A stretch of 64,000 bases of DNA, taken from NCBI GenBank assembly GCA_001630475.1, contig KV419399.1, positions 704,552 to 768,551 of the forward strand, written 5' to 3'. The notes under the pieces were generated by a model. It was not told where the DNA came from. It searched no databases and was given only the letters and a program-made list of their open reading frames with translations. Of this stretch, positions 11,258 through 51,878 are shown one piece after another. How positions within the stretch are numbered: position 1 is the first letter of the stretch; each line of letters begins with the position of its first letter. The position numbers and the translations under genes were made by a program. This DNA is from Sistotremastrum niveocremeum HHB9708 (Eukaryota > Basidiomycota > Agaricomycetes > Sistotremastrales > Sistotremastraceae).

Positions 11258-11291
11258 AAGGAAAAGTTGATGGTCGAGCGAGGCTTATATA

Positions 11292-21094: not shown

Positions 21095-21281
21095 TTCCCT
21101 TGACGACACAAGCCGATAGTGCAGTAGCAAGGTCATCTTGTCCTCCGAGTTGCAAGCAGAGCTCGAAGGGCGGGGCGACAAAAATTAGATAATAGACATA
21201 ACTGGGCGATGCCCAGATAAAAGCTATTATGCTTTTAAGAACAGATACTACACTTGATCTAAGCCAAAAGGCCAGAGTGGT
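21095..21281 (-). ncRNA. U2: U2 spliceosomal snRNA, copy B (intact)
   Basis: U2 snRNA pairs with the intron branch point in the spliceosome. The minus strand from 21281 reads ACCACTCTGGCCTTTTGGCT then TAGATCAAGTGTAGTATCTG, including the nearly invariant branch-recognition GTAGTA. Stem-loop IIa (AAAAGC...GCTTTT) and stem-loop IIb (CTGGGC-ATC-GCCCAG) are perfect. An Sm site, AATTTTTG, follows. Stem-loop III (CTTCGAG...CTCGGAG) and stem-loop IV (GATGAC...GTCGTC, with an ACTGCACTA loop) follow in turn. The length of about 187 nt fits fungal U2. The exact ends are estimated. Copy A at 10547-11257 is interrupted, so this is the only uninterrupted U2 gene in the window. Confidence 0.9.
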
Positions 21282-21308
21282 AGGGAAAAGTTGAAGGTCG
21301 GGCGAGGC

Positions 21309-29987: not shown

Positions 29988-31460
29988 GCTGAGGGTGAAC
30001 AATACTGTCGTCTTCCTTCAGCTTTTGATGAGAGCCCTCCATTTTCAAGACTACTGTTGGTGGAGTGAGCAGAGGGCGAAAGGTTGACGTGTGAGAACAA
30101 CATACTTCTCGTATCGTCTGTCTACGGTATGTCTACCGAGCGCATCAGCACGATCAAGCTAGGCTTGCAGACCCGGGTAATAGGCGCACGCCCCGCACTC
30201 GCACGCAGGTGAGACGAAAGTGCATACAAGAGATGCTGCAAGCATACAAGGGCCAAAACGTGAGCCGCATGTAGTACCAGTTGACATGGTCGGCAAGAAT
30301 ATTTCTTTGAATGATTATGAATAGATTGAGATACGGTGACAGCGAAGACGAGCTCGACTTTTAACTTGAAGAGATCTTGGATGTATACCGCATATGTCTG
30401 ATAGAATGAGGTGCAGCGGTGGGAGCAAATAAGCCGAGCTATTCGATCAAGACGATGACGGCACTTGGTGGGTGTGCGATGCTCGCCTCATTCAAGAGCC
30501 TTGGATTGCGACTGTGAGGAGATACACATCGTGGGCTGTCATGTGGGAGTTTGTGCCTGATCTTTAGATCGGCTGATGGCGCAGGGGTAAAACCGGAAGG
30601 TTGCCACGATGAGTACAATGATAGAGTTCTAGGGGGGAACGGCTGAATGATTGAGACGCGCTTATCTGTCGGCGCAATCAGAGGTCCAGACGGGGCTTGA
30701 GAAGAATCAACATTACTGCAAGAATCCCGTCCTTCTTCTCAGACTCTTCCTTCGTTTGACCGCTGTGAGCTGATGGCGCGACGATGTGATGAAAGAGCTG
30801 AGAGAATCTATGCTGGTTTGGACTGCGCACCCAAGCCCGAGTCCTGTGAAAAGATAAGGGACGGACGACTCATGCTGTACCGTAGGGGACTCGGAATTGT
30901 AGGGGCGTCATGGAAATGCGCTTTCGAGTCAGAGAATGGTCAAGTTATGACCTGTATGAGTATGAGCCAAGAGCAGATATCTACAGGCAACGGGGACTCA
31001 CGAAGCATTCTTGCGACGTGGGGGTCGGGATCCACAGTACATGTAAGACTCGTCATTGAGGTCGACGCGGTATCATTGAGATATCTGAAGTCTAGAAGTC
31101 TGCCCCGAAGAAACTCCAGTCGTTAGCACACGATCAGCGCGATACCAGCAGCATAGGCCGACGCACCTGTTGCCTCGAATCAAACACCTCAAGTCATTAA
31201 TTCGCAGAGGTAGAGTACGGTGATCGCGAGCACGTCAACCATGTCAAGATCGACGGATGAGATTGTGAAGCTATCTTGAAGGGAATCATTGGCGCGGCAT
31301 GTTGATGATGCGATGATGGATGAATAAAAAGGAGCAATTGAACATCTGATGAAGGCCTTGGTAAACAAAGCCAAACACATTCGAATATTCTCCCAGAGTT
31401 TATGACTGATGTCACAGTAGCAAAGAAACTATTGAACACTCTTCAAAACTGACTTCTAAC
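29988..31460. other. Intergenic, no supported gene; dispersed repeat fragment
   Basis: A plus-strand frame at 30773-31126 (117 codons) is the longest, but I recognise nothing in it. At about 31348-31376 is GAAGGCCTTGGTAAACAAAG followed by CCAAACA, a fragment also found downstream of KEP1 (about 45381) and KEP2 (about 48867). Confidence 0.4.
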
Positions 31461-33383
31461 CTATTCTTCCCCATGGCCAGTGATGGGCCTTCCGTCCGTC
31501 TCAATAAGGATACCACGGATCTCACCACCTCTTACTTCCCTCGACACGAAGATGCTCCTGAACTGTGCCACTTCAATTTGAATATGGTTTACACCCTCGA
31601 ACCTTGCTTCTGTAGGAAGCGTTCTCAGCTCCTCGGGATCCCTACCCTGATTGTTGACGACTTTATACTGAACATCGTCGTTGGGGCCATCAGCCTGCGC
31701 AATTCCCGCATCAGGACTGGGTCGAATAGGAGTCTGGATTCATCCATGTTTCAGCATCGGAAATGTATAATGAATAACGTCGTACCTCGTAAACCGCATG
31801 TCCTTCCGGGGTTGTCTCGGGATTTCCACGATTATCGGTTCGCCTCTCCCAAGTCTCAGGGGAGTCTCTATCTGGCATATTTGCTGCAATATCTCTCTGG
31901 GAGAACGTTCTCGTCGATGCAGCAATGCCATCACCCGCGGCTTCTTCCCTCTTCAAGTCTTCTTCGCTGGGGTCTTCCTTCTTTGAGTTCTCCCTCTTCT
32001 GCTTGATGTATTCAACCAACTTCTGAACGGTTTTGAAGAGCACGACTCCCATGAATTCGAAAGGAATGGTGGTGCCCAAATATCCGACCATGAATGCCAC
32101 AATGATGTCGACATCCTTAGGTGCATCCTGAGTAAACTAGTGAATATCGGAAGCCTATCACGGCGAAGAATGAGAACTTACGGGAGTATTCTGAGTTCCA
32201 GAAATCACGATCGATGCATCGAGCTCCTTGTCGTAGATGGCACCCTGGAGTTGACGAACCAGCTTTGGGTCAGTGTGCTTGTCTGGATTTCCTCTGAGTA
32301 ATCGTAAGTACCCTTCTCAGGAATGTGGCACGTATACTGACGCGACGTATTGCCAGGTGAAGTTTAGATATCCTTGCCTCCATTCTATTGTCTCGATGAG
32401 CCTCCGCGCCATTCACATATAACCAATGTGACTCACTTGCATTGTCATCATTAAACTTGGCATCCTTGTCGTCTTCTTTCGACCACGAGACAGTGTTTTG
32501 TGGGGCGGGGGCATTGGAGATCAGGGTGATCGAATCCCCAGTCCCATCGTGGTTTCGCACTTTCAAACTTGCGCGAGACTGTCCCGGCAGTGCGCCCCGA
32601 ACTGACACCTCAACTTTCACATCAAGGTCGGCAGTCTCAGATGGAAGGCCACCATTTTCGGGATAAACGATCTTACTATAGTCTTGCATGATCAGCTCAC
32701 TGTAAAAGGCTAGTAAAACGTCACAAACGTTGAATTATACGTTCCATCAAATTGTTGAATATCATCAAAGAAATCTCCTCCCACGTGGGTGTCACCATCG
32801 GGTTCGTCTTCACCATCGGCCCAGAACTTGGCGTGCAAGACGCGGTTGCCGATAGAATCATCACCACTTTCCGAATTGTCGTATTTGAATGTAATAGAGC
32901 CATTGCCAGGAGCGTTAGTCTTGCCGCTCTGTTTGGAAGCCCAAGTCACTGCGCCCGGAAAGCCGTTTTTGAGACCGACGATGGTGGTATTTTCGTAAAG
33001 GACGGTGATGCTGCCAGACTTTGAGCCGATGATGATAATTGTATGGGATTCTTTGTCTCTGGCCAGATCGGTGGGATGGACGATGTAAACGGACTGCCAG
33101 GCGATAGTTGATGTGAACAAAAATTCTATTTCACGCATATGAATCGTGGGATATTGTGAAAACGAAATGTCAGCTTACTCTGGTATCCACCTTTGAGATC
33201 ATCGGTCGTGCAACCATATGGTTTCAACAATGCATCGATCTTAGTCGTCCTTTGGTTTACGGGAACGCTGGTCGCATCGGCCTGGAATTTTTTGCGTAGG
33301 ACTGGGTTGTAGCATAAGTCCTGCAAGAACTTGGCAACGCCATCGGCGGGATCGACTGTCTGAGTAGTGCTAGTTGTATACAT
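31461..33383 (-). CDS. Unrecognised 530-aa protein, seven exons
   Basis: Exons 33383-33179, 33125-32741, 32699-32437, 32384-32342, 32293-32182, 32136-31786 and 31694-31461 all join in phase and give 530 aa. The 41-nt intron 32740-32700 removes an apparent stop; without it the locus looks like two genes 20 bp apart. The N-terminus has a small helical module, VAKFLQDLCYNPVLRKKF...KIDALLKPYG, reminiscent of the short LigA/NHLP-leader-like domains in bacterial small proteins (weak resemblance). Residues about 75-330 are beta-rich with Gly, Asn and Asp (SKSGSITVLYENTTIVGLKN). A hydrophobic segment, IIVAFMVGYLGTTIPFEF, lies near residue 342, followed by a Lys/Glu-rich coil and a polar tail. There is no signal peptide. 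It diverges from the giant gene at 34067 and may act with it. Confidence 0.75.
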
Positions 33384-34066
33384 TGTGGTTATGTATTGGA
33401 ATTGTGATGTGTTGGGAGGCTGAGTGTCGTAAAATCTCACCTTCTTTGTAGCCAATTTATGGACATCTTTGTCTGTACATCGGACTAAGCCTATCAATGT
33501 GAACTTGAAGCGCCTTTCGATTGGGACATCCTCCGTGCCGTTCCGCTTTTGCTTGTTGTTCTTGGCCAAGTTCTCGACGGCGTGGCACTAGATGGCTCAT
33601 TGCAGCGAGCTGTGATGAGGATGATTTGAATTCCCGTGATTGTAAAGATACACCCCTTAGACCCACAAGTCATGTATGTTGCTCGACATACATTTACGGA
33701 TCATCTCGCAGAAATTCGAAGCTCTGGACAGGGAACATTAGACGCACTCTGATGTAGATAAGAAAATTTACTCAGAAGGCTCTTCGGCATGGAAAGTTTC
33801 AGGAAGTGAAGTTCTGCTGATTGGCCACTCGAGGCTTATTTGGTCGTTCGCACACAGTTGTCGGTGCACTATCACCCAAAATGCTTCCGCTTAGACGCTG
33901 AACGCTGACCGAGCTCGGCAACTGCTCGGCAGCCTTCGGAACGAGAGCGGAATCGGATACCGCGCTTTCGCGTCCTCAATCGACTTGGTCGTTCCCTGCA
34001 GACGCTCCGTTCATAAGGGCTAACCTGTAGTGTACACAAGTAAGTCTTGCGCTACCTTGCTCAGCC
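33384..34066. promoter_or_regulatory. Probable bidirectional promoter region
   Basis: About 680 bp between two divergently transcribed unrecognised genes. Open frames here are short, and none begins with ATG in a useful context. The region presumably holds both promoters; I see no clear TATA box. Confidence 0.4.
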
Positions 34067-37000
34067 ATGTCGTCTAATAAAGCGAACTTTGCGTCTTTCA
34101 GTCCTACCCAGTTCTCTATATCCGATGCAGTAAAGCTTACCGTCACCGGTGGCACGAACTTCGCCAACACAGGCTCCCATCTCTGGTTTCAGTTCAGAGA
34201 TGCCGACTCGCCTTCTGTCGACCCAAAGACAGTACCATCATACAAGCCAGATTCCATTACTCAAAAAGGCCAGACTTACGATGCCACATTCATCGTCCCA
34301 GCAGGTTCTTTCGTCCCAAACGCTGCATCCTACCAACTCTGGGTCGGGACGACCTCGTCAGCGACGGAGATACCTGCTTACGAGGACTGGCTGAGCAATC
34401 CTAATGCTCCTCAAGCCATCATCTACCAATTGACGAGCGGCGTGGGTACCACGATCCCAGTTCAAGGTGGCACGAACTGTATTGTTGGTATATTCGGCAT
34501 CCCAGACGGCACCGACGGGGCGACGGTCACATTGGTCCCAGACACGAAGAATCTTCGCAGCAAATCTTGGCATGATGCGAACGCAAAACCTGCGAACATC
34601 GTCATCACCGCTTCTGTTCAAGTCACGAACAGCCGTAACCAGCAAGGTCTCATTCATTGGACTTCGCCCTTGATTCCGTTTGAAGGTACAGTTTGCAGTC
34701 TTTAGCATACCATGCTTCTTTCCTCACTGTCGTGCAGGTCATTACAACATCACAGTGCTGTTGAAGAACAAGGACAGCGAAGAGCCGCTTCTGACTTCGG
34801 CAGTCCCAGGCCCAGGAATCATCACTTACGTTCCGATACTTGGATCTCTTTCTGAAACGACAGAACCCTCTATTCCGACAATGACTTTGACATGTTCTTT
34901 CACCGCAACTGCTCCTGCTCCCGGCACGTTGTACGACCAGGTACTGATATCTCACGATTATTTTTTGAGCACATTTTACTCATTTTATTTCACATAGGAC
35001 ATTCCTGACACCACTGCTGATGATAGCATGCCTCAGTGGGTGCAAGATCTACAACCAGCCACCGGTCCTCGTCCAGCTGGAGCCGTAAGTCATCGCGTCA
35101 TCGCTTAACATTTAAAAAATTAATCAAACCGATCCAGGGCGATTATTTCGATTGGGACAATTACGGAGCGGGACTCGTTGTGAACGAAGATGGCTTCGCT
35201 CTTGTTGACGATACCGACGTCCGTGTTCAGCTCCTTCAACTCGAGGGCACCGGTATCCTCTTGAACGGCGCTCCCGTCGCTCTACGCGTTTGGACTGGCA
35301 AGACCACCGGATGGAAGTGCGCCAGAATGGACACCAACTCACTCACCTACTCTCAAGCCGGGAATCATCCCACATTGCTTGTTGTGGACAAGCACAGCTT
35401 GGCTTATCCTACCAGGCGAGAAGAGATCTTTGGCATCTATCAGTTGGTAAGTGCCGCTCTATCGTTGCGAATATATATCTAATCTTTAACCAGGTGCACA
35501 ATCCAAAGTATGGTGTACAGCCTTCGATCGACTGTGTTGATACTGAGATCACTGCAGATATGTCGTCGGTGATGATATTAACAACGCGAAGAACCGCGCC
35601 GCGCCTTGCCTGATTGAAACACAACCGAACGAAATCATGCTAGGCATCGATAAGGTAATTCTTGTGTCGACATCAGGATGTTATCCGAGATCTAACACGA
35701 TATCTGGATCAGGTGATTATGGTGCCCACTGCCTACGCTAGACCAGTCGGTACGCTCTCGTCTCGCGTCAATAACTTTCAAATACTTATGAGCGCAATCA
35801 GATCCGTACTACATTGATATTGGCGTCACCCCCTCTCTCCTCGAAACCCGCACTTACCCGCCTCAGAGTCTGGTATACGGCCAAAGTGGATTCTTGGACG
35901 GTGTGAAAGTCGACACTGACGTTTACACCGTCTTCATCACCGGATACATCAAATATGCCGTTCCTACTGACGACATGGTCTCAGCCCAAGTACTTCCTGC
36001 TCCCAATCAAAGTAACAAGATGTCTTGCCGGGTGAGTCTTCATGTGACTTTGGATGCCTTTCCATCCTGACGATACCGTAGTGCATCAGCGCCGTTGATA
36101 TTACTACCTCCACTTCGACCCCGACAAAATATGTCTTAACAATTGGCAGCGAACCATCGCCGGTTTCTCGGGTCTCGAACCTATTTTATTCTTTTTATGT
36201 CGGCGACGGAGATGGCTCTATCCCGGCAGACGGGGCCTGGAAGCCGCTTATGGATAATTCGTTCGTCTTCAGCTTCATAATCAAACTCATTGGACGTTTA
36301 TATTTTTGATCAGTCTTGCTGCCGCTGTCGCCAGCGGGACAGGCCCGGGCACGGTGGTTCAGATATCAGAGACCTCCGTTCTGATATTCCAGCGCAGCCG
36401 TTCAGCAGTTCTCGAAATTTACGTTTGCACCATCGATCTCGCACATCAGTCCCTCCAATTGTCCGACCCGAAGGGAGTGAGAGAGAAGGGTGTTCTCGCT
36501 CTTCAATTAGACGACATCCTTGATTCTATCTTGAAGGCATACACAGCTCGGTTTGGCTTGACCTTCAAGTCAGGCTATCAGTTTGGTCCGATCTATGACG
36601 TTTGGGTATGCACCTCTATGCTTGACCGATAGCGTTGGCTGATGTCATCTTTGATACAGTTCACCGTCGAATATCAACCGACCGCGGGAGCTAGACCCGC
36701 TGGCTTCCATATCTTCACCGTCCCATTCATGTACACATCAACCATCATCCATCTTTGGTTTCCGCTCCTGAAGTCTGCACCCTGGATTGATACTCTCGGC
36801 GGTGTCTGCATCGGCGTCTACGGATCCATTCCGGCTGCGATCACGTCGGATCAGAAGAACCCTCCTCAACTCCAAATCATAACTGGGCAGCTAGGATCTA
36901 CTGCCGATCTTGTCATCGAGTCGATTACATACCCAGGCTCGGAAACCCTGTATCTTGAGGTTCAAGCTTCCAATAAGGACGGTGCTCCCACTTTCGGTAT

Positions 37001-40000
37001 TCGGGAGTGGGGACAATACGATAAAGGATTCGTCCAATATCCCAGCAACAAGATTACCGCTGACACAAGAACCGTCACAATTCAAGCTGCTGGGACGACG
37101 TGCGGACTCAAGTTACATTGGCAAGGCACTACCGGCACCTCACGCTCACCGCTTACGGTAATCGACGGCGACACTTGGTTACTTCAGGTGTTGCCGTACG
37201 AGATTCAGAAACTTACATCCGGGATTAGCAACATTGGAACGGGTACCGTCTATCTTGACACCTCAGGTACCCACATTGTCAAAGACCGCAAGTTCTCGTA
37301 CACCTTCACTTTGACGTACAATGAAGGCACAAATGGTATGTATTGAAGACGTTTGCAACTCTCGATTTAATCTTCTTCGCAGGCACGAGAGGCTATCTGT
37401 CTGTCAGCAACTCTAAAGATACCTATGATCAGACGGGTACTCCGACTATCAAGAATGAACAAATACCACTGACTAAAGACAATCAGGTCACTCTTGCGCA
37501 GTCGTAAGTGGACACACCTTTTTATCTTCATGAATTGACCGTGAGTAGGACTGTCAACATCGTTGTCACGTTGACTGCCGGCGCTGCGGATGGCGATCAG
37601 TGGCAAATTGTGGGTTAATCAGCCGTCAATCCTTTCACTATCTGATTGTCGATTAGACCATTCAAAACGGATCTGTCTACACCCCCATCTCCGGGACTAC
37701 CAACTCTGGAGATTGGGCTTACCCAACCATCTCCGGCCTTTACAATTCCCAAACAACCTCTCGCGTGTCCGTTGCCTGCAGCGACATCGTCACAGTCGCA
37801 AATGCTTGCCCCTCGGAAATCAATTTCACCTATTCAATCAACAATTCTCCGGACCAAGAGTTCATACTCAATGTCATTACTACCCAAGACGGAGGCCATG
37901 ACTACATCACTGGCTGGGGAACTGCTACTTTGCCCAACGGACTAGTGTTCGGCTTTGAAAATCTGCAGGGAAATCCTGTAAGTACCGCTGTATTTTTTTG
38001 CTGTTTAAGCTTTCACTGAAGTCTAACCGTATTCAGGCCAAAGGCGATCACTGGACCTTTGATGTCGCCCCATCACTGCCAACCATTGAGATATTTGCCC
38101 AGCGACCAGCAGCGAAGCTTGCCTCCATATACGACTCAGCGTGGATCGTGGCGCCCACTCATTCTGTCGGTGGCCGTATCCAGCAATACAAGATTGCGAT
38201 CCCCACATCAAACTCCGCTGAAGCTAATTTGCCCTCCACGGCTACGCTCCTGCCATATCGAACAACACTCGAGCCTTACTTGAGTCGCGATGCATCACCC
38301 GCTCTCTGTTTCAAGGGTGTTAAGACTGCTGGTGTATCGTGGTCTCAAGCGATTGCAGCCGAAGTTCCCACTGATTCTCAGAATGTTCGCATGTATGGAC
38401 TCCTCCGCGCCCTCAACGAAGATTATCGTCCTGCACACTCCGGATCTTTCTATTCAGTCGCGCAAGGGACCAATGGCTGGGCAGACTCATCGTCTGTCGT
38501 TTCCGTCAGTACTTTTGACAACAATGATCTGTTGAGTGAACCGCGCCTTCCCAAAGATCATATTGATCAGCTTCCTCCAATTGACTATGTGCCTCCTGGA
38601 TATTCCACTTCACCCCCCATGTACATGAGCACATCCTGGCTTGCGGTATTCCCTCAGGTAAGCTTCATTTGACAACTCAGGCAATCTAACTCATACAAAC
38701 TTGTCAGTTCCGATTCAACTTCGGCATGGTACAAGTTGTTTCCAATCTAGTCAAGACGTACGGCCTCGACATCAGCAGTGTTGGAAAAGCCTTGCACTTC
38801 CTTATCAATGCAGGTTCCGGACTGACACTCTTGGACGAGTCATTCTTTGTGAACGTAACTATCCCGGCAACAGATATTGCGACAGTCAGTAATTTCAATG
38901 CGGCAATTAACGACAAAATATATCGCAAGTGCATTCATATCTGTCACATTGGGCTGTGTACTGACATCACTCTAGAAAAGTGTGCTATTCCTTGGGGTGC
39001 GTTTGCATGTGATTCACCCTGTTACCACTCGTCATGACTATTTGCAGCGATGAACGCCGATGGCACAAGGAAAGACGATCCTTTCGACAATCAAGACTTC
39101 TACCTGAACCCGGAATGGGATCCCACATGGGTGAGTCCAGTACTTTGTTTGTCCGATCGTCCGTCTGAATCCAGGCTAGACAAAGGCCGATTTTCCTAAA
39201 TTGGGCAAATATATCATTCAGCTAATGGTGTGTGTTTTCTCTCTCTCGAAGCTTTGCCACCTGAAATCCGCCAAGGTTCTGCGATCATTATGGGAGTTCC
39301 CGCCGTTTTGGACGGGCAACAACACGGAGGGTCGCCATTGCCCAAATTACTGGAAGTTCCGGTTGTCGGGAGTAATTTGCGATCAGTTTCTTCAGACCGC
39401 ATTTAGTGTGCCGTGCTATCAAAACACTTTGCACGACGTTCGGGACGAGATAGCAAAAGGCTATTTCCGGAAGACCGATTATTTCAGGCAATCTTCTCTT
39501 GGTAGCGGCTATGCAGCGTTCTCAATGGCGCTCTCTGACTCTCGTCTTCTTCCGTCTTACGGTCAATTAACTTCCCGTGGGCGTTCGAAACTTGTTGACT
39601 CAATCAGTCAACTTGTAAATGGTGGCGGACCTGTACTTGGCAATGCAGCAATGAGGTATGACGGCGATGTCCTCGTTGTATTTTCTACTAAAATTTGAAT
39701 CAGTTACCTTGCCAATAGCAATCTTGAGACGACTTTGACGCCTGTCAATTACAACGCCGTAACAGAGATTCCAATCTCAGCTGACAAAGATAGTGATAAG
39801 AATTCTCCGGCTCCTGAGGATTGGGAGGTGCATGTATGTACTACTTATTGATCATCAAGTTGTTGACGGTCGACACTCATCACTGCCTGTTACCAATAGC
39901 TCGCTCATTATAGTGGACCAATCTTGTGAGTCAATATGCTCGTTTTCGGAGCCTCTCTATTCTTATGTGTATTTAGACAGATCGGCCTTACTGTACAGTC

Positions 40001-41459
40001 TATCCAGTCACTCATAGCTGCAATCGGAAAGTCAGGACTACCGAAGGACGCTTTGACGAAGATCATCGAGGCCCTGCAAGCCCGGGGACCCATCAGGTCT
40101 GCCGCCGGGGCCAACTCGCGTGTCATTGGTTCTAGTCCTTCGGGTGGTTCTCCGCGAAACCGAAGTCGCGCTGGATCGATTGAAGAAGATGAGATACAAG
40201 TTATCCCTGAAGCAGAAGCTGCCGTCAGTCTCGGAGTTTATGCATTGACGGACGCTGAAAAGGAATTACTTGGTCTGATCTTTGCTGTCATTATGCCGCC
40301 TTTACTCAGTTTGTCTGAACTTGTAGGAAAAGTGCAAAAGGCCCAAGGGATCAAGCTGAATGTGGGGCTTAACGGCATCATGGCACGTATGTAATCCGTA
40401 TTCACACGCCTCTTGTGCCCCTGACCATATCTTTGCTACAGTCGCATTAACGGCCGGCACTGCTGCTGCTTGGACTCAGAACGAGAAGACGCGTCTTGGA
40501 AAAGCCATAAACGCAGTCAACGTCATTATCGACACCGTCGCATTCGCCCAAATCGGCGTAAAGATATGGGGTTCGCACATGATTGCACCAAATTCCGCTC
40601 CTGCTGATCAGCCTCCGCAGAGTACAAGACCAAGATGAACCTCATTAAAGGCCTCCAAAGTGATGCTAATGCTGTCGCTGAGAATGCTGCTAGAGCGCAG
40701 GCGACTTTAAAGTATGTCGATCCACATGACGTCATGAATCACGTTCTAAACAAATTTTGCAGACGGTTCGAGAAGGCTAACAAAGCCCTTTCCGGCGGCT
40801 TGAATGTCGCATTTGGCGTTCAAAGTATTCTCACTGGTGCTCAAGAGATTCATAGTGGGGGTTCACAACTGTCTGCCGGTCGCTTGGATGTTACAACTGG
40901 CGCCTTTTTTGTGGCAAGTGGTGTCTACGAGCTAGGAACTGCGATCGAAGGCTTCGCCGTTCTGGATGCGGTTGGTATCGGCGAGATTTTGTCTGCAATC
41001 GCTTTTGAACTCTGTGAGGAGACCTCCTTGGAATGTCTTCGGTTTGCGCGCTGACTATCTTCGCAGCCATCATCAGGATCTGGATGGGGGGTGTCAAATC
41101 TGTGGCAGCATTCGGCGAATCAATAATTGAGGTCAGCAAATTCAGTACATCGCTCGCCTTGTCTCTGACCTTCCTTCAGCTCATTCCCTTCCTGCATCTC
41201 GACGGAGGAGATAGTCAACGAGATGCTATCATAAATAGGTCAGCGTAACCTAACGCGCGGAATGACGTCCTCAACTGAATCGTGTTCTCTTATCAGAATA
41301 CGCGAAGCAAAGGGTCTTGCTGTTGGCCTACGAGTCGCTCGAAGAATTGAAGATCAGGAGAACTACTCTCCCGACCCTCGCGACAATGGCATCGAGCTTT
41401 CAAATTACAAGATAACAACACCCGACGCTAACGTCCGCGATATCCCCGACAGTTACTAA
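34067..41459 (+). CDS. Giant unrecognised protein, about 1,950 aa, about 30 exons
   Basis: I do not recognise this protein. Eighteen exons from 34067-34685 to 39048-39130 and nine from 39704-39833 to 41297-41459 join in phase without exception. The stretch 39131-39655 is coding in at least three pieces, but its splice sites are not resolved. The first roughly 1,500 residues are beta-rich and soluble-looking (DAVKLTVTGGTNFANTGSHL, VNEDGFALVDDTDVRVQLLQ) with no signal peptide. The C-terminal roughly 400 residues are helical, with Gly/Ala-rich hydrophobic stretches (LLGLIFAVIMPPLLSLSEL, ALTAGTAAAW, GGLNVAFGVQSILTGAQEI) and a coiled coil. An N-terminal IPT/TIG-like Ig fold is possible. Microexons of 14 nt (35494-35507) and 21 nt (38976-38996) and a GC-AG intron (38925-38975) occur. 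Two genes rather than one cannot be fully excluded at 39.2-39.6 kb. Confidence 0.75.
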
Positions 41460-42529
41460 AAGCAAATCTAGCGGTCTTATGCTGGCGTGTTTCGTGGAGT
41501 GCTCTTATCTCGCACACGTGCAATAAGTCGCCCATGACATCTGTTGTTCTTTCGGCTTTACTCGAAATTCAAGTCATTCGGATATACTCTGTAGTGTCAA
41601 ATACGAACATCATGCCGATACTAGGCGTTTGAAATACTATCTGTATTACTGCCATCTCTAGTGTGATTGAAACAGAGCTCGACGTGCCACAAAAGTACTA
41701 GTGCTCAGTTAAAGCAAGGAAGAACCACGCGCGCTTATTTTGACCGTGATCACGTTCATTTTGCCAGCTGCTCGACTTTGTGCTATGCGACTCTGAACCG
41801 GGCTCCTTGACCTCATGCTACCTGGTCCTATCAATGTCCATCATAGCATGGCCCTCTTTTCTTGCCACTGTTCTCGAAGGCGACCATCAATGCTTCTCAC
41901 AGGCGAAACTTAGACCACCATTCGCGGGGATACCGATACAGGCGATGCAGCCTTGACGCACGCTTCCTAGGACAATGAGGGGTCTATTTATTATTGCTAT
42001 GGGAAATATGAAATATCTGGGAAGCAGGGAAGTTGGTAGCAAGGTGTAGGAATTGGCAGGATGAGGACACAAGGCGAGAAAGGAACGAGCAAAATTGATT
42101 GTCGTATGTATCGTTGAGTTTCGCAGAACGAGCTGATATACTGTATACAGGCCAGAGCCTGCGCTATTATACGTCACCTATCAATGTATTTCCCTAATTC
42201 AAGGTCCACGAACGTTTGATCCGTCAATTATTTACGCTTCAACTTGTCGACCTCGAATTGTTCCACACACCGTGCGGTCAACTTCACTACCCTCAAATCA
42301 ATCAGCATCTTCCTGTCTCTCGCCACCTTGAAGCTCGCTTCTTCCATTCTGAAGGATTGATCTCTGCTTTCCAATGAACAACGTGCGGCTAGACTACTGT
42401 GACAAGCGCGTGCACAATGGATACGTCCATACCTGATCGAAAACCTTATCACTCGATTTCACACCGACAAGAGTTGGTTCGCCGGAAAAGCGTTATTGTC
42501 AATGTCACGATGAGAAGAGAGGTATAGAG
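41460..42529. other. Intergenic, no supported gene
   Basis: I see no complete gene. A minus-strand frame at 42228-42452 has a charged, coding-like tail (KVARDRKMLIDLRVVKLTA), but no start codon or upstream exon I can defend. It could be the end of a small gene that begins inside the tandem array. Confidence 0.4.
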
Positions 42530-43710
42530 GACGAAGTGCGGCGAAGAATACCAGAAGGCGGCCGATCTTCTCACTCAGTCTCAGTAAGCCGGGGCAACAG
42601 TGAACGCCATAGCTCACCAAATTTCAATATGCCTGCTCGTTATCTCCTCTCAGGGAGCTGTACTCGGATGAAATAGACTTCAAACGCGTCCATGCTACAA
42701 GTCCAAGCTCGTGGAAGCTTTACTAAGGCTGATATTAGCATTGAGGAAATGTTCTTTGGAGCATCTTCTTTCGGAGATCTCCTACAACAGTAAGATGTTT
42801 CTCGTGTCAATAGAAGATGTTGGTCAGTCAATACGAGCATGCCGAAGGATGAAGGCATCGACCAGCGGGATGGTCACGGTTCGGCAACTTCCATATCCGG
42901 TTGAGTCGACTGTGGTGATCTCAGACGTCAACTTGCGACAACTCCCCATTCGACCTCAAAGTGTCACACCTTGACCTCTCATAAGCATCTTCTTTGGTTT
43001 CCTCTGGCTATGTCAGACTTCTACGTTATCTCTATTGCCTTCAAAATCGTCCGTCATTCGGAATCCTGCCGATCGTCGATGTATACGCGAATCACGACAT
43101 TTGGGTGGGAGACCGCTGCGACCTTGAACGCAGTCAAGGCTATGCTATCTTTCCGGACCTGCATAAGTAAGATAGAAGCTGAGAAGCTTGACGTCAAATC
43201 AGCTTCACCGTCGAATGCGCCCTGTGGACAAGGTAAATCACTTCCTTTCTTAGAAGATGACGTCGGTGCCTGACTGGCAGCTTCTTCTACAGTGCCTATG
43301 TTCTCCTGAAGCTTCTTTCAGCCATAATCTTGCTATAGAGTTCAAGGCCTATCGCATGGAATCTTCTGATGTCATCGATGCATTTCACGGCACGTTGACG
43401 GTATCTTTGCAATTTCTCCAGGGCCCTGTCGCAATCGGATTTTGTCATGCTTCATCGCTACTGTATAGCAGGAGCTCTGACAGACACCTACCCGTGCGTA
43501 ACCATCCTTTTCGAAGTTCAGAGAAGCTGCAAGGTCTTCGTGTTTTGTGTGGGAATTGGAGAACGTTGTGGAGTGCGACATCGAAGCTTCATCGCTCTCG
43601 TGGTGCACGCGAGCAACTGGCCACCAGGCCATGCCGATCTGAGAGGTGCTCTGCTCAAGATAGGATGGATGTGGTCTTCGTCATAGGACAAATGCCACCT
43701 CCTTATCTGA

Positions 43711-43718
43711 TATAAATA
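43711..43718 (+). promoter_or_regulatory. TATA box of KEP1
   Basis: TATAAATA lies 86 bp before the start codon. About 25-30 bp further on is TTCAGCATCCTTCACCGGAC, conserved in all three paralogues and probably covering the transcription start. Confidence 0.7.
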
Positions 43719-43796
43719 CTGGGCCGTCGCTCGAAGTTCAGCATCCTTCACCGGACACCCTCAGTCCTCACCGACTCTCCAATCACTTCTCTAACG

Positions 43797-44859
43797 ATGT
43801 CCATCAAAACTCTCCTCCCCATCCTCCTTCTCCTCAGCGCCTGCGGTGCTCTCCCCACTGCAATCAAGGCACCTTCCGACGTCGAAGAGTCCCTCGGCGT
43901 ATACAGTAGCTACTCTAGCGAGAAGCGCGCTGTTGCTGCTCCTGACACTGAAGATTCCCTCGGAGTGTACAGCTCATACTCCAGTGCTAAACGCGCCGTC
44001 ATTGCCTCTCCCGACACCGAAGAATCTCTCGGTAAGCCCGTATCCCGTACCACATAATCAACATCACTGAAATGACGTATTGTTCAGGTGTCTACAGCAG
44101 CTACGCTAGCCAGAGGAGGGCTATCGCACCCGACACCGAAGATTCGCTCGGCGTGTACTCGAGCTATTCCGACGCGAAACGTGCCGTTGCTGCCCCGGAC
44201 ACTGAAGAATCTTTGGGTGAGTAGTTTGTCTTCTGAATAACACGAAAATCTCTGACCGAACCTCTCTTACAGGTGTCTACAGCAGCTATGCTAGTGAGAA
44301 GAGAGCTATCTCTCCCGATACCGAGGAGTCCCTCGGTGTCTACAGCTCCTACGCCAGTGAGAAACGCGCCATCAAGCCTGACACCGAGGACTCGCTGGGC
44401 GTGTACTCCACCTATCGTGACGACAAGCGTGCTATCGCCCCCGATACCGAGCCATCCCTCGGTGTCTACGACAGCTACAAGCGAGCCATCTCTCCTGACA
44501 CCGAGGATTCTCTCGGTGTCTACAGCTCCTACGCCAGCGACAAACGCGCGATCTCACCCGATACCGAGGAGTCTCTCGGAGTCTACTCCAGCTACGCTAA
44601 CGAGAGACGTGCTATCACCCCCGATACTGAAGAATCCCTCGGCGTCTACTCCAGTTATGCCAGCGAGAGACGTGCCATCAAACCCGATACGGAAGACTCC
44701 CTCGGGGTATATTCGAGTTACGCCAGCGAAAAACGCGCCATTAAGCCTGACATTGAGGAGTCCCTCGGCGTCTACAGTTCCTACGCTAGTGAGAAGCGAG
44801 CCATTACACCCGACACCGAAGACTCCCTTGGTGTGTACAGCCAATATTCCAGCGCATAA
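43797..44859 (+). CDS. Kex2-processed repeat protein 1 (14 repeats)
   Basis: Secreted peptide precursor of 316 aa. Exons 43797-44031, 44088-44216 and 44273-44859. A signal peptide, MSIKTLLPILLLLSACGALP, is followed by a short pro-region and 14 repeats of about 20 residues. Each repeat has the core PDTE[ED]SLGVYSSY and ends in KR or RR, the cleavage site of the Golgi protease Kex2; the last repeat ends the protein without a dibasic site. Residues before PDTE vary (AIS, AIK, AVAA, AIT), as do those before KR (ASE, SSA, RDD). One repeat is shortened (VYDSYKR). Processing should release about a dozen similar tyrosine-containing peptides. Both introns split the glycine codon of SLG-V. The class includes dikaritin RiPP precursors such as UstA and fungal signalling peptides, but no tailoring enzyme is recognised nearby. 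Confidence 0.9.
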
Positions 44860-47024
44860 GGCCGCGGATATCTTAGTAAGCTCTCGCCTTCCCCCCTATA
44901 CACCCTTAGCTGATTCAATTCCTTTTTAGCGACTACTATAGATCAAAAATATTCCTTTCTGCTATAGCTCTCAGTGTCCATATATACGTAACGTACCCCA
45001 TGTATCTCTACCTGTAAATACGCTACAATTTATTTCACTTATGTCCTTCTACGTCTGCCCTCATTGTGATGTCATCCAACTGAAGACCTCCTCAATACAG
45101 TTTTGTCCATATCTGTCAGCAGAGCTATCCCAGACCATATCATTGCGGTAGTACGGCTAGTAAAAGACTATCGACATCATTGAGACACGTCATGGATTCA
45201 GACCGCGCATGCTTTATATTATCGGGATTCTAGTAACGCATGTGAGCTTCCTAAGTCGCGGGATATTGGCTGAATAGATATAAGTGCAGGCATTCCGATC
45301 GAATCATAGATCGCAATCAATTAGATATGGGGCCTCTGAGTCAAAGCGTTGAGTCACACAATGATAGGCGCTGGAGGATGAAGCCTTTGGTAAACAACGG
45401 CAAACAATATCGACACTTTCCGACCTGGGGTTCTAGAAAATCTGCCTACTTCGCGGTGAGGTAAAAGTTGACCGGTTGACCTGTATAGTCCAATTCAATT
45501 CAGGTAAACGGTAGCGAGGACTGGAAGTGCGTCGCAATCTCGTATAATATCGGCAAGTCGAATGATGGCTGTTGGTGATTGTGAACTCACTGGGAGCTGG
45601 CCACAAGGTCTATCTTGCCATTCAAATCCATATAAGATCCCCTAAGTTCATTTCCAGCTGTACGGTCCTGAAATGATGATCAAGTCTGTTGTCAGCTCGA
45701 GTAACTTGAGCCTTATGGCGTCATACAGTTGCAGAGGTATCTAGCAGTGCCATCGAAGGTGTTTAATGACTTGAATATCGACGAAGAATTGTCATTGGCA
45801 GATATCCAGACATTGGGAACCTTTCGGCCAATAAAATACTGGAAAGGTCGCAGTGCGGAGAAGAACACCAGAAGCTGCTCGATCGTCGTGTTCAGTCTCA
45901 GTAAGCCGCAGAAACGGGTTGGGAAGTTTCTCACGATGATATATACCGCGAGAAGTTGGGACCGGATGAAGTAGGTTTTAAACGTGCAGATGGCGCAAGC
46001 CTTTCCACTATATCGGTGGTGTGAGTAGAAGCACTGGCAAGGGTTGACTAACCCAGAGGTTAGCCTTGAGGAAGACTTCGTGTGATTTTCGTTGAGCTGT
46101 CAACCGCTGTACATTATGATATACGATGGCATGGTCAACGTATCAGTGTGTCTTGTAATTGGGTGAGGCAAGATGAGGCACTGATGTTGTTCGAGGAAGG
46201 CTGTTTCGGCATTTCCCTTTTCGTGTTTGGTTCCGATTCCGGAAGCAAACAAGCGCCGAGCCGATTTTTCGTCCGCAATAACGACAACACCCCGCACTCG
46301 GTCGATCGAGCTTATGTGCCTTGGCTATCATAAGCGTATCCTTATATTGAACTGCTCTGTCAGATAACTTTCTGCTACTATCCGGTCCCACGCGCTCTGA
46401 AATGTCAGAGCTTATCAAAGTTGAAAGAATTGTTATCTCGAAAAAACGCGACATCGTTGTGAGAAACCGATACGAAAGGATGCGGCATTCTCTGTGCCTG
46501 GAGAAGTCATCCGGAAGTCGAAGCTTGACGTCAAGCGATTCCATATTCGAGGTGGCCATCATTCTTCTGTGAATTCTTTCCTTGCTTCTGAATGACGTTG
46601 TTCTAACGCGCTTTCCGTCAGTTGGAATGACCCCCGAAACTTGCTTTGATACGCTTTGAAATGGCAGAACAACGATCCACTTCGATGAAACACCATGGCG
46701 TCAAATATGCAATCTATGAACTAACACAGTCCTCTTTGCGATTTCTTCGCAGCCTAACATAGTCGGAGTGTGCAAATCACGACTCCTATTGCCTCAGCGA
46801 ACCACTCTTGCGTTCGTGCGAACTTGGCAATCACAAGCTCCAAGATGACCTAAATGTCTTCTGTTTCATGTGAAATGTGGAAAAGGATGTCAGGTATGTT
46901 TTTGATACGTATCGCAATCGTCCAGTAAGCTGATGATTGCTCGCCAGCGTAGAATGCCACAGCTCTGTTCAATGTGAGACGGATTTGACATTCGTCATAC
47001 GACAACCTCATACCTCTTGTGAGA
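44860..47024. other. Spacer between KEP1 and KEP2
   Basis: Contains the end of unit 1 and the 5' part of unit 2. The minus-strand frame at 45713-45934 includes the conserved peptide GLLRLNTTIEQLLVFFSALR, found in all three units, and may be an exon of a second duplicated gene. Otherwise I see nothing I can name. Confidence 0.4.
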
Positions 47025-47032
47025 TATAAATA
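47025..47032 (+). promoter_or_regulatory. TATA box of KEP2
   Basis: TATAAATA lies 92 bp before the start codon, followed by the conserved TTCAGCATCCTTCGCCGGAC stretch. Confidence 0.7.
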
Positions 47033-47116
47033 CAAGACTTTCCATCGGTGTTCAGCATCCTTCGCCGGACACTCTCCTCCATCCTACCCACCCACCTTCC
47101 AACTCCAACTCTCTCG

Positions 47117-48377
47117 ATGTCTGTCAAAGCACTTCTTCCCATGCTCCTTCTCCTCAGCGCCTGCGGCGTCTTCGCCCTTCCGACTGTCAAACCACCATCC
47201 GACCTCGAAGATTCTCTCGGCGTGTACAGTAGTTACTCGAGCGAGAAACGCGCTGTCGCTGCTCCCGACACCGAAGATTCCCTCGGAGTCTACAGCTCAT
47301 ACTCCAGCGCGAAGCGCGCCACTATCGCGTCCCCCAACACTGAAGATTCTCTCGGTGAGTATATACTACTTCTATATGGTCCGTTACGGAGGATTGGTCT
47401 TTCTGACAATGACATTCAGGTGTATACAGCAGCTACGCCAGCGAGAAGAGGCACATTGAGGACCCCTTCGAAGTCTACAGCCACTACTCCAGCGAGAAAC
47501 GAGCTGTATCGAGCGCATCTCCGGATACTGAAGAATCACTCGGTACGGGCACTGCTTGTGATGCAAAATCATCTTCTGACACCGATTATTCTTAGGCGTA
47601 TATAGCAGCTATGCCAGCGAGAAGCGTAGAGCCATCGCCCCGGATACCGAAGAGTCACTCGGCGTATACTCCAGCTACTCTCAAGACAAGCGTGCCATCC
47701 ATCCCGACACTGAAGAATCCCTTGGTGTCTATGACAGCTACTCCAGTGCGAAACGCGCCGTTCACCTTGATATCGAGGAATCGCTGGGTGGCTACGAGAG
47801 CTACGCCAGTGCCAAACGCGCCATTCGCCCTGACACCGAATCCTCTCTCGGCGTTTATGAGAGCTACGCCAGCGAGAAGCGTGCCACTCCCGACAACGAG
47901 GAATCCCTCGGTGTCTACTCCAGCTATCGCGACGAAAGACGCGCCATCTCCCCAGATACCGAATCCTCCCTCGGTGTCTACGACAGCTACTCTCAAGCTA
48001 AACGAGCTATCTCTCCTGATACCGAAGAGTCTCTCGGCGTCTACAGCTCGTATGCTAGTGAGAAACGCGATATCCACCCCGATACTGAAGCATCTCTCGG
48101 AGTGTACGACACCTACCGCAACGAGAAGCGCGCTGCCCCGGATACCGAGGACTCTCTCGGTGTATATTCCAGCTACGCCAATGAAAGACGCGCCATCAAG
48201 CCTGACACCGAAGAGTCTTTGGGCGTATATGAAAGCTACTCTAGTGCCAAGCGTACCATTTCCCCTGACACCGAAGAATCCCTCGGAGTCTACAGTAGCT
48301 ACTCCAGTGAGAAGCGAGCCGTCGCACCCGACACTGAAGAATCCCTCGGTGTCTACAACCAGTACTCCAGCGCGTAA
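47117..48377 (+). CDS. Kex2-processed repeat protein 2 (17 repeats)
   Basis: Paralogue of the gene at 43797, 380 aa. Exons 47117-47354, 47420-47542 and 47596-48377, with introns in the glycine codon of SLG-V as in the other two. The signal peptide is MSVKALLPMLLLLSACGVFALP. I count 17 repeats with the core PDTE[ED]SLGVYSSY ending in KR or RR. This copy is the most varied: one repeat is reduced to HIEDPFEVYSHYSSEKR, others have VYDSY, VYESY, GGYESY or VYDTY at the tyrosine pair, and one junction has KRR. An in-frame ATG at 47048 exists but lies between the TATA box and the initiator region, so the start at 47117, which opens the signal peptide, is preferred. Confidence 0.9.
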
Positions 48378-50522
48378 ATCGTGCCGTTTTCTTTTGTAAG
48401 CTTTCGTTCTGACTCTACAGCAATGATTCTGACTCGGATTTCCTTCTCAGGCCCCTCTGTATAAATAAAAGCTCTCGTTAATGTCTCTTCCTTGTGTACA
48501 TAGAATAGCTCTCCTCGAATGTATTCTTCCCTGTAGCTGTTCACAATTTATTTTACCATTCTCCTCTTTCATACTCGACTCAATTGAGCTGGCGTAACAA
48601 AACAACAATCGAAAATGACCTACGGCACCATTAACGGAAGATGGTCAGATGCCGGAGACCATTTTCGCACTGGCGGTTGAAATTTCGCGAATCTGAGGAG
48701 CTTTCAACCTCAAAACCGGTGCTGGGCTCTGTACCCTTAGACTGCGGTTAGGTCTCCCTCACATGAATTTGAAAAGTCAAAATCGATACTGGACCAGTCG
48801 ATCAATCAAATCGATGTCTTCACAGCTCAGCGCAAGAAGCGGTGGATGCTAAGCGCCCGTGATTGAAGCCTTTGGTCAACAAGGCCAAACAATCGCGAGT
48901 GCGTCCGGGTCTGCGCTTGTCGCGGTGCTTCGTGACGGTTTGGAGAAATACGATTTTGGGAAAAAAAAATCTGACACTGAGTGACCTGGGTGTTTTCGAT
49001 TGCTGGCATTCTCTCAGATATATCTTTTTGACTACGTTTCGCTAAGAATATGCATGCAGCCGAAATAGAGTGGGCCATCTTCACGTTTTCAGTCACGATT
49101 CGTCTTGTCCGTGTGTCAAAATATTCATTCTTCATGAGTCGCCAGACGAGTTGCCGGGAGTTTGCTTAGTTGAACAGAGTTCCTCGTGCGACTGCTATCG
49201 CCCTGCTTAGAGTTCTGTTAGCGTGCATTACCAAAAGAAAAAAAACATCTCTATGACCCTCGATCCAGCGGAGTTCGACCACATGCGTATAACATGCGAC
49301 CAGAGCACAGAAATTCAGCAAAGGACGAAGAGCGGAGAAGAACACCAGAGACCCGCCGATCGCCTGGTTCAGTCTCAGTAAGCCGAAAAGAGGATCAACG
49401 GTATATCCTACTATCTCTTCCCATTACCTGGCTTGACGGATGCTTTAATGACAATCAGATGAAGTATATTGAGACTTGGAGATGCAATCCGTAAGACTGG
49501 TTGAAGAAGCGTTGATAACTCATCCTGTGGGCCACCGAAGGAGATAGCCTCGAGGAAGTCTTCTTTGTTATCGTCTTCGCAGGATTCTCATGTATCGTGG
49601 TAAGAGCTATAGTAAGGTGTTTGATTTGAATGAATGGCGATGGCTGATGATGGTAAGAGTTGATTTTCGGATTTCCCCTTTCACTCCGGATTATTCGGCT
49701 ATGCCGGGTTTCGGTTGATTTTCGGTTTCAGGCTTCCGGGTGCAATAAGCGCCGACACGACTCTCTTTCAACCCACCGCCAACCCGTCGAGCTCAGTGTG
49801 CCAAACGCAGCCACGTTGGCTATCATAATCTTGAAATGGCGTGGAACTTGTATGTCAGATATTAGTCCTGCTGCGAGGGCTGGATCGGCAGGTCAGCGAT
49901 CGGACATGCAAAAGCAACTGTCAGCGAACTGACGACAGCTGTATAGGAAATTGGAGTAAAGCGTACCGCATTCTCTGTGCCTGGAGAAGTGAAATAGATC
50001 ACGAGGATTGACGTCGACGTAGCTTTGATCTCGCAATCGCCGTAAGTCTTCTGTGAATCTTTCCTCTATTGATGACGTTGAATTCAAGATTCGGCTTCCA
50101 GTGTCATTGCCAGTACGGCAGGGATCGGAAAATCATACCACCAGCTATTGCGATATCAGCATAGTCGGGTATGAATAGTCACTCTGACGTCAAGCCCGCG
50201 TTGCTCGACCTGATACGGTCGTCTTTGCAATTTTCTCGACACCTATCGCAGTCGGATTGCCACCTGACTGTTGCTCTCATTTCAAGACACGGATAAGCCG
50301 TCATTCTTCGGAAATTTTGACTTCCAGAAGTTCAAAGAAGTTGTGGATCTCTTGTCCTTCACGCGGGATATGCAGAAGACCTCGAGGCACGTCTGTGAAC
50401 CTTCGTCACATCCGTCAGGCACGCTGAAAATAACTCTCCAGGACATACGAACCTCCGGTGCTTCTTGTAAATTAGCATGAACTGCATCTGCGTCAGTGCA
50501 CAAGTTTGTTTCCCTCCAGGCA
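48378..50522. other. Spacer between KEP2 and KEP3
   Basis: End of unit 2 and 5' part of unit 3. On the minus strand at 49322-49388 is the third copy of the GLLRLN...SLVFFSALRP peptide. No complete gene is seen. Confidence 0.4.
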
Positions 50523-50530
50523 TATAAATA
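50523..50530 (+). promoter_or_regulatory. TATA box of KEP3
   Basis: TATAAATA lies 103 bp before the start codon, followed by the conserved TTCAGCATCCTTCATCGGAC stretch. Confidence 0.7.
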
Positions 50531-50625
50531 CAAGCCTTTCGCTCGCTGTTCAGCATCCTTCATCGGACACTCTCATCTCACTCAACTCCTTCAATCTTCT
50601 CAACACCCCATCCACTTCCCTAGCC

Positions 50626-51878
50626 ATGTCTGTCAAGGCTCTTCTCCCCATGCTCCTCCTCCTCAGCGCCTGTGGCGTCTTTGCGCTCCCTACTATCAAA
50701 GCGCCATCCGACGTTGAGGACTCCCTCGGCGTGTATAGCAGCTACTCTAGCGAGAAGCGTGCTGTTGCCGCCCCCGATACCGAAGAATCCTTGGGAGTGT
50801 ACAGCTCGTACTCCAGCGCCAAGCGTGCCGTTATCGCCTCCCCTGATACTGAAGAGTCTTTGGGTGAGCACCTATTCTTCTTTGAATATTCGACATTACT
50901 GACATCAAATATACTTCAGGTGTCTATAGTAGCTACGCCAGCGAAAAAAGAGCTGTCTCTCCCGACACCGAAGAGTCGCTTGGTACGAGTACAAATTTGT
51001 GCTGAAGGATCATCTTCTGATGACAATTATTTTTAGGTGTATATAGCAGCTATGCTAGCGAGAAGCGCGCCGTTTCTGATACCGAGGATTCTCTCGGCGT
51101 CTACTCCACCTATCGCGACCAGAAGCGCGCCGTTCCCGACACGGAGGATTCTCTCGGTGTCTACTCTACCTATCGCGATGAGAGACGCGCTATCTCTCCA
51201 GATACCGAGCCTTCCCTCGGTGTCTACAACAGCTATCGTGACGAGAGACGTGCCATCTCTCCTGACACTGAACCCTCCCTCGGTGTCTATGCGAGCTACT
51301 CTAGCGAGAAGAGAGCCATCGCTCCCGACACCGAACCATCCCTCGGCGTCTACGCCAGCTACTCTGAAGCCAAGCGAGCCGTCTCCCCCGACACCGAACC
51401 CTCTCTCGGTGTCTACTCCACCTATCGCGACGAGAAACGCGCTATTTCTCCCGACACCGAGCCGTCCCTCGGTGTATATAGCTCCTACTCCAGCGAAAAG
51501 CGAGCTGTTGCGCCCGATACCGAACCTTCTCTTGGAGTCTACGCGAGCTATTCTAAGGAGAAACGTGCTGCTCCAGATACTGAAGATTCCCTCGGCGTCT
51601 ACTCAAGCTACCGCGACGAGAGACGTGCCGTCGCCCCCGATACCGCGGAATCTCTCGGTGTCTACTCAACTTATCGCGATGAGAGACGCACCGTGTCACC
51701 CGATACCGAGGAGTCATTAGGCGTGTACGCAAGCTACTCCGATGCCAAGCGAGCCATCTCTCCCGATACCGAAGAATCACTGGGAGTGTACAGCAGCTAT
51801 GCGAGCGAAAGACGTGCCAGTCCTGATCTTGAACGCGCTGGCAGCTATGCCTCGTACGAATGGTATAGCAGCAATTAG
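50626..51878 (+). CDS. Kex2-processed repeat protein 3 (16-17 repeats)
   Basis: Third paralogue, 380 aa. Exons 50626-50863, 50920-50982 and 51037-51878; the middle exon is exactly one repeat (63 nt), against two repeats in the other genes. The signal peptide is MSVKALLPMLLLLSACGVFALP. Sixteen regular repeats end in KR or RR. Several carry the sub-type PDTEPSLGVYASY or PDTEPSLGVYSTY with RDEKR or RDERR endings, a flavour rare in KEP1 and KEP2. The C-terminus is a degenerate unit, SPDLERAGSYASYEWYSSN, without a cleavage site. The repeats are probably released by Kex2 and trimmed by a carboxypeptidase. Whether they are then cyclised or modified cannot be seen here. Confidence 0.9.

Follow-up and report, generated by a model that had tools for sequence, protein, structure and literature searches.

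The locus examined here raises the question of what three adjacent genes built from tyrosine-containing repeats encode, and whether their products are cross-linked after cleavage. The genes, referred to as A, B and C, lie in a stretch of 64,000 nucleotides from Sistotremastrum niveocremeum HHB9708 (contig KV419399.1, here C6, positions 704552-768551; genome of 34.7 Mb), and this whole stretch is called the window. Judging from the gene content of the contig, we consider it somewhat probable that A, B and C are precursors of secreted fungal peptides that belong to one family and arise by a dikaritin-like route, in which an oxidase of the UstYa (DUF3328) family would cross-link pairs of tyrosines. 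Together with three paralogs outside the window (D, E and F) they form a real, well-preserved repeat-peptide system with an informative arrangement, and not a new kind of system.

Each of the three precursors starts with a leader that is, by eye, hydrophobic and signal-like (MS[IV]K..LLPxLLLLSACG...), and the first unit joins this leader directly, with no gap. The units share the core PDTE[E/D]SLGVYxxY, and KR or RR closes every one of them except the last in each gene. A typical repeat unit reads AISPDTEESLGVYSSYASEKR, and AISPDTEESLGVYSSYASE and AISPDTEDSLGVYSSYASE are among the most frequent; at the DNA level, Tandem Repeats Finder reports arrays with a 63-bp period (9.2, 10.6 and 10.1 copies). 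An earlier note on this DNA had described three tandem Kex2-repeat precursors with 14, 17 and 16 or 17 units, able to release more than 40 peptides, many of them distinct. Our spliced models agree, as they hold 14, 17 and 17 units (the last of C being degenerate, ASPDLERAGSYASYEWYSSN), and 42 of the 45 post-leader units differ from one another. The models are predictions with short GT-AG introns whose splice sites were chosen so that the repeat frame persists. All 13 introns modelled in the six genes are phase-1 introns that interrupt one and the same glycine codon (SL-G-V) of a repeat unit, and this shared position suggests that intron-bearing blocks were copied together with the units. A donor-like GGTGTC is also present within units at the SL-G-V position, and one may speculate that it could permit splicing that skips repeats.

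The three further paralogs, with 19, 21 and 21 units, are located 28-93 kb past gene C on the same contig. Six-frame searches of the whole genome gave at least 54 matches with one stretch of A as the query and at least 51 with the variant units of F; every match lies on C6, and both sets resolve into the six genes A-F, a number that is a lower bound. A hydrophobic leader can be recognized by eye in all six models. Similar units parted by KR or RR, the defining feature of Kex2-processed repeat proteins (KEPs), occur 14, 17, 17, 19, 21 and 21 times in A to F, respectively, and the 104 post-leader units amount to 88 distinct peptides. This architecture, the purifying selection on the core described below and two kexin-like loci in the genome (frames for a kexin P-domain and for a subtilase, the latter identified by eye) support the earlier reading of the genes as Kex2-type repeat precursors, and we infer that a Kex2-type protease cleaves them.

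The tyrosine pair is the most strictly conserved feature of the stretch tested. Units were anchored on SLG or GLG, so the tyrosines were not part of the anchor, and both tyrosines are present at the Y-x-x-Y positions in 107 of 107 anchored units, which bears out the fixed pair per unit that had been claimed. When the precursors are instead split at Kex2 sites, YxxY is found in 109 of 110 segments, the sole exception being the leader piece of F. Several synonymous codons are used at core positions. Within genes, the ratio of nonsynonymous to synonymous substitution rates (dN/dS) of the 12-codon core, which is rough here since synonymous sites are near saturation (pS, the proportion of synonymous differences, is about 0.6) and unit pairs are not independent, is 0.09-0.15 with the SLG/GLG anchor (about 0.13) and 0.09-0.17 with the anchor used first (excluding the degenerate last unit of C). 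The earlier note had named a ratio near one as a result that would speak against its reading, and the units give values far below it, pointing to purifying selection on the core. Between core units of one gene, pS is 0.57-0.69 and the corresponding nonsynonymous proportion (pN) is 0.11-0.16; because synonymous sites are nearly saturated while pN is low, the repeat pattern does not appear to be the outcome of recent DNA slippage. Among the 82 units of A-E, the ratio (omega) is 0.12 in the 12-codon core versus 0.53 at the two positions that separate the tyrosines. The four-residue head of the units has a dN/dS of 0.21 and the three-residue tail one of 0.13, but for the tail dS is 2.96, which exceeds the reliable range.

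A genome search with PF11807 (UstYa) returned 53 matches, which a 600-base merging rule reduces to 32 loci. Several of these loci are grouped on contigs C33, C37, C43 and C52, and their number is twice the 16 UstYa-like genes quoted for Pleurotus, which the available part of that report calls probably involved in dikaritin production (PMC8893723). Two of the loci, Y1 and Y2, are on C6. Y1 lies beside D, with E next to D, and Y2 lies beside F, each transcribed divergently from its precursor (Table 1). Both are modelled as proteins of 271 amino acids encoded in four exons, are 81% identical to each other, match PF11807 with E-values of 1e-52 and 4.2e-52, and carry a membrane segment (by eye) and two HxxHC motifs (HQLHC and either DHSDHC or DHTDHC). 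Paired HxxHC motifs are suspected to form the active site of UstYa proteins, according to the available text of PMC12048977; among solved structures Y1 has no relative at E up to 0.1. The dN/dS between Y1 and Y2 is 0.14 overall and 0.055 over residues 87-271, which argues that both oxidases are under selection. With 32 loci in 34.7 Mb, the probability that any one chosen position has a UstYa locus less than 2 kb away is ~0.005. The combination used to recognize dikaritin loci, a UstYa gene with two HxxHC motifs near a precursor, is thus found at D (with E adjoining) and at F. Tyrosine cross-linking, which had been suggested for the products of A-C, gains from the UstYa/DUF3328 genes that adjoin D and F and loses from the lack of any found in the window.

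The arrangement of duplicated segments offers an account of this uneven distribution. Gene A and its upstream region align with D in inverted orientation, and the homology reaches ~1.27 kb upstream of the start codon, which leaves ~440 bp to the start of D's UstYa gene; the start at 42530 that had been proposed for the locus falls at the edge of this segment (42526). B matches E, likewise inverted, and C has only short upstream stretches in common with B, E and A. A 9.7-kb block of the window also has an inverted duplicate, which directly adjoins Y2 and F; five open frames tested in this block (31.8-41.5 kb) gave no Pfam match at 0.01. These alignments identify the window segment as a paralogous copy that lacks UstYa. 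In the simplest reading it lost its UstYa gene through rearrangement, and a possible alternative is that UstYa was instead gained in the ancestor of D and F.

The promoter regions of the six precursors have also been conserved. The TATA box decamer ATATAAATAC is identical in all six, and the TTCAGCATCCTTC that follows it is nearly identical. A noncoding element of ~60 bp (GCGG.GAAGAA.A.CAGA....C.ATC....TCAGTCTCAGTAAGCC) is located 1.2-1.4 kb upstream of each precursor. With A's copy as the query, a DNA search of the whole genome found six matches, one upstream of each of A-F, and since the search skips very common words, six is the number found and not proof of rarity; C's copy as the query found five of the six, missing that of F. 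The element was aligned in all six copies and in five without F, and its position and conservation suggest that it may act as a shared control element. Hidden upstream coding sequence was considered and rejected, as the upstream regions of paralogs differ at sites that follow no codon phase overall (81/88/81, 59/54/64 and 114/117/116 mismatches), in contrast to those of a UstYa exon (6/8/33); in single 120-base upstream windows, one phase accounts for as much as 53% of 17-21 mismatches. An Rfam scan of the window gave nothing at the precursor locus.

In the dikaritin-like route that we favor, the precursor proteins would enter the secretory pathway by their signal-like leader. Kex2-type proteases would cut after the KR or RR with which each unit closes, the basic residues would be trimmed off by a Kex1-type activity, and acidic peptides 15-22 residues long, for example AISPDTEESLGVYSSYASE, would be left. 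A membrane oxidase of the UstYa/DUF3328 family would then most likely oxidize the invariant Tyr-x-x-Tyr, producing a cross-link within the peptide, and A-C would depend on this oxidase in trans, since it is encoded beside D and F only. The products might serve as secreted chemical or signaling agents. A more specific proposal, which we hold tentatively and with appreciable doubt, is that both copies of the duplicated UstYa oxidase work in trans on all six precursors, which would be co-regulated, yielding a library of cross-linked YxxY peptides under one distal control element. Frames of an ATP-binding cassette transporter are found 5.5-8 kb downstream of F (C6 854816-857296; E = 4e-22 and, narrowly below the cut-off, 4.2e-5, among 10 open frames scanned from 193 kb of sequence), and this transporter is a possible candidate exporter.

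Several observations weigh against a dikaritin-like origin of the A-C products. No UstYa gene was found in the window, where tblastn with Y1 and Y2 gave nothing better than E = 0.72 in a search up to E = 10, and the same search found no UstYa remnant near A (C6 746064-747077). The nearest UstYa genes are 35-43 kb from A-C, which therefore lack the proximity seen at D and F. D with Y1 and F with Y2 go back to a single unit that was duplicated (73% over 2.9 kb), and their pairings therefore count as one event and not as independent evidence. None of the 24 genome matches to tyrosinase (PF00264), an enzyme included in an older five-gene definition of dikaritin clusters, is on C6. UstYa genes are common in this genome, as the 32 loci attest, and a crude scan of ten stretches at other UstYa loci (eight of ~3.4 kb and two of 9.9 kb) detected no single open frame encoding a repeat precursor, although it did pick up the known precursors in four stretches used as controls. 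DUF3328 proteins also serve pathways other than those of ribosomally synthesized and post-translationally modified peptides (available text of PMC12048977). Taken as a predicted gene set, the system is dikaritin-like by the content of the whole cluster, not by the immediate neighbors of A-C.

The main alternative is that these are ordinary linear KEPs whose unmodified or minimally modified acidic peptides act as signals or interaction factors, with UstYa serving another purpose or acting only on the products of D, E and F. Where peptides from agaricomycete KEPs have been reported as detected, they are linear or carry minimal modifications, in several cases pyroglutamate (PMC9769878, available part), DUF3328 is nearby in only 103 of 1680 basidiomycete KEPs (PMC7329392, available part), and the window segment has no UstYa. 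We nevertheless regard this explanation as rather unlikely, because a UstYa gene has been retained beside a precursor in both duplicate copies, with the enzyme apparently under purifying selection, and because the tyrosine pair is unbroken in the anchored units. A second alternative, that structural or surface peptides are formed by self-assembly of the Kex2 products or of the uncut proteins on hyphae, in the manner of the Rep1 peptides of Ustilago maydis, and are possibly fixed by interchain oxidation of tyrosines, seems improbable. The units are rich in Ser, Gly and Tyr and high in copy number, as this explanation would have it, but they are also acidic (rich in Asp and Glu), diverse and short and hydrophilic at their ends. 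Rep1 is, like A-F, a basidiomycete protein with Kex2-cut repeats, but it is not known to have a UstYa partner, which counts against the comparison. Where Rep1 differs is in its peptides, which form amyloid-like fibrils (PMC9769878, available part), and this favors the structural explanation. Functionless, decaying tandem repeats maintained by unequal crossing-over are very improbable, as the degenerate last unit of C and the aberrant units of B (HIEDPFEVYSHYSSEKR and one GGY) are set against intact frames in all six modelled genes (316-509 amino acids), the low within-gene dN/dS at near-saturated synonymous sites and the conserved promoters and distal elements.

The view that no family with this core had been described is probably wrong at the family level. 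Type S-5/#80 of Umemura 2020 comprises 12 Y-rich KEPs in two Sistotremastrum strains, with DUF3328 within 15 genes for eight of them and not for the other four, and its Pfam names DUF4170, Eryth_link_C and DUF3756 each occur once in the text available (PMC7329392). In a Pfam scan of four of the six precursors (A, B, C and part of F), DUF4170 was matched by four, Eryth_link_C by three and DUF3756 by one. Six KEPs per strain, richness in tyrosine, partial proximity to DUF3328 and the three Pfam names are the same in A-F. Because the gene number, the DUF3328 proximity and these three odd Pfam matches fit, the family has probably already been catalogued as S-5/#80, a correspondence of counts and Pfam names and not of sequences. 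The available part of that paper differs from the present analysis in giving counts and a repeat-profile figure, and no gene arrangement, divergent UstYa pairs, duplications or upstream elements. As evidence of homology, the matches that the precursors give in Pfam (DUF4170, TX13_rpt, Eryth_link_C and others, some above the curated cut-off) were rejected, as they cover short stretches of the repeat; their sole use was as a fingerprint for comparison with Umemura's table. PF13164 and PF10645, two Pfam families mentioned for Sistotremastrum species (PMC6980582), had no match in this genome, but they had none in the control genomes either, so their absence carries no information on the genus. The core string SLGVYSSY and four variants were not found in the text of 5.39 million open papers, no functional study of the family was among the matches listed in a literature search, and the available main text of Le Marquer 2019 makes no mention of Sistotremastrum (PMC6339444).

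Among characterized systems, the parallel is asperipin-2a of Aspergillus flavus (precursor AprA, oxidase AprY). Its four genes include one DUF3328 protein and no tyrosinase, and in its core, FYYTGY, ether links run from Tyr side chains to beta-carbons (PMC6514808, available part). The spacing in YTGY is that of YSGY in F and YSSY in A-E. However, asperipin-2a comes from an ascomycete, with a single precursor gene, a hexapeptide core and a reductase and a transporter in the cluster, whereas A-F are six precursors, and their units run to about 20 residues. Ustiloxin (UstA/UstYa/UstYb/UstQ) and phomopsin resemble A-F in their signal leader, many KR-separated Tyr cores and DUF3328 proteins. Their clusters contain a tyrosinase and a methyltransferase (PMC6514808, available part), in contrast to C6 with no tyrosinase match, and their core is Tyr-Ile linked, as opposed to the Tyr-x-x-Tyr of A-F. 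The linear KEPs of agaricomycetes (Coprinopsis 497993, Lentinula 2599 and Pleurotus 1091723) have the same precursor design and come from the same class. They differ in that their products are reported as linear and, in Pleurotus, in having Ste13-type XA/XP repeats (PMC9769878, available part); the main text of that paper contains none of the strings GVY, YSSY and SLG.

Precursor and oxidase genes stand head to head, with the oxidase frame intact and apparently under selection, which makes the cross-linking question directly testable. The locus also provides a natural contrast between D, E and F, which have an oxidase close by, and A, B and C, in whose segment copy it is missing. The dikaritins named in the available parts of the cited literature are of ascomycete origin. 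If the peptides are cross-linked, dikaritins would be extended to basidiomycetes, and the units would form a large natural substrate set for the tolerance of DUF3328 enzymes between and around the two tyrosines.

Table 1. Features of the precursor cluster. Positions are those of the window unless marked C6 (contig numbering).
Feature	Position	Strand	Details
Precursor gene A	43797-44859	+	exons 43797-44031, 44088-44216, 44273-44859; 316 aa, 14 units; spliced model
Precursor gene B	47117-48377	+	exons 47117-47354, 47420-47542, 47596-48377; 380 aa, 17 units; spliced model
Precursor gene C	50626-51878	+	exons 50626-50863, 50920-50982, 51037-51878; 380 aa, 17 units, last degenerate; spliced model
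Precursor gene E	C6 784308-785829	-	21 units; spliced model
Precursor gene D	C6 788203-789604	-	19 units; spliced model
Precursor gene F	C6 847582-849266	+	21 units following the leader piece, variant GVYSGYGGQAKR; spliced model
UstYa gene Y1	C6 791331-792328	+	start 1726 bp from start of D, divergent
UstYa gene Y2	C6 844826-845821	-	start 1760 bp from start of F, divergent
Distal conserved upstream element of A	42526-42610	+	about 1.2-1.3 kb before ATG; genome DNA search, alignments
Distal conserved upstream element of B	45843-45908	+	genome DNA searches, alignment
Distal conserved upstream element of C	49320-49405	+	genome DNA searches, alignment
Distal element, copies outside the window	C6 790805-790889, 787166-787230, 846259-846338		one per gene D, E, F
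TATA box of A	43710-43719	+	ATATAAATAC; conserved TTCAGCATCCTTC follows
TATA box of B	47024-47033	+	ATATAAATAC
TATA box of C	50522-50531	+	ATATAAATAC
A and upstream region, paralogous to D and upstream region	42526-44211	+	78% over 1.7 kb, inverted
9.7-kb block	31780-41513		inverted duplicate, 72%, at C6 834244-843934

Elsewhere in the window, Rfam matches two U2 small nuclear RNAs, both on the minus strand (21095-21283 and 11146-11259). Sequence resembling the first of these is also present at C6 797873-798224 and 857943-858294, and the U2-like copy at about 10.5-11.3 kb appears to be split by about 0.5 kb. An open frame of 1084 amino acids on the minus strand (26763-30017) resembles a NOD-like receptor, as it contains tetratricopeptide repeats together with weak, below-cut-off matches to nucleoside triphosphatases of the NACHT/STAND type.

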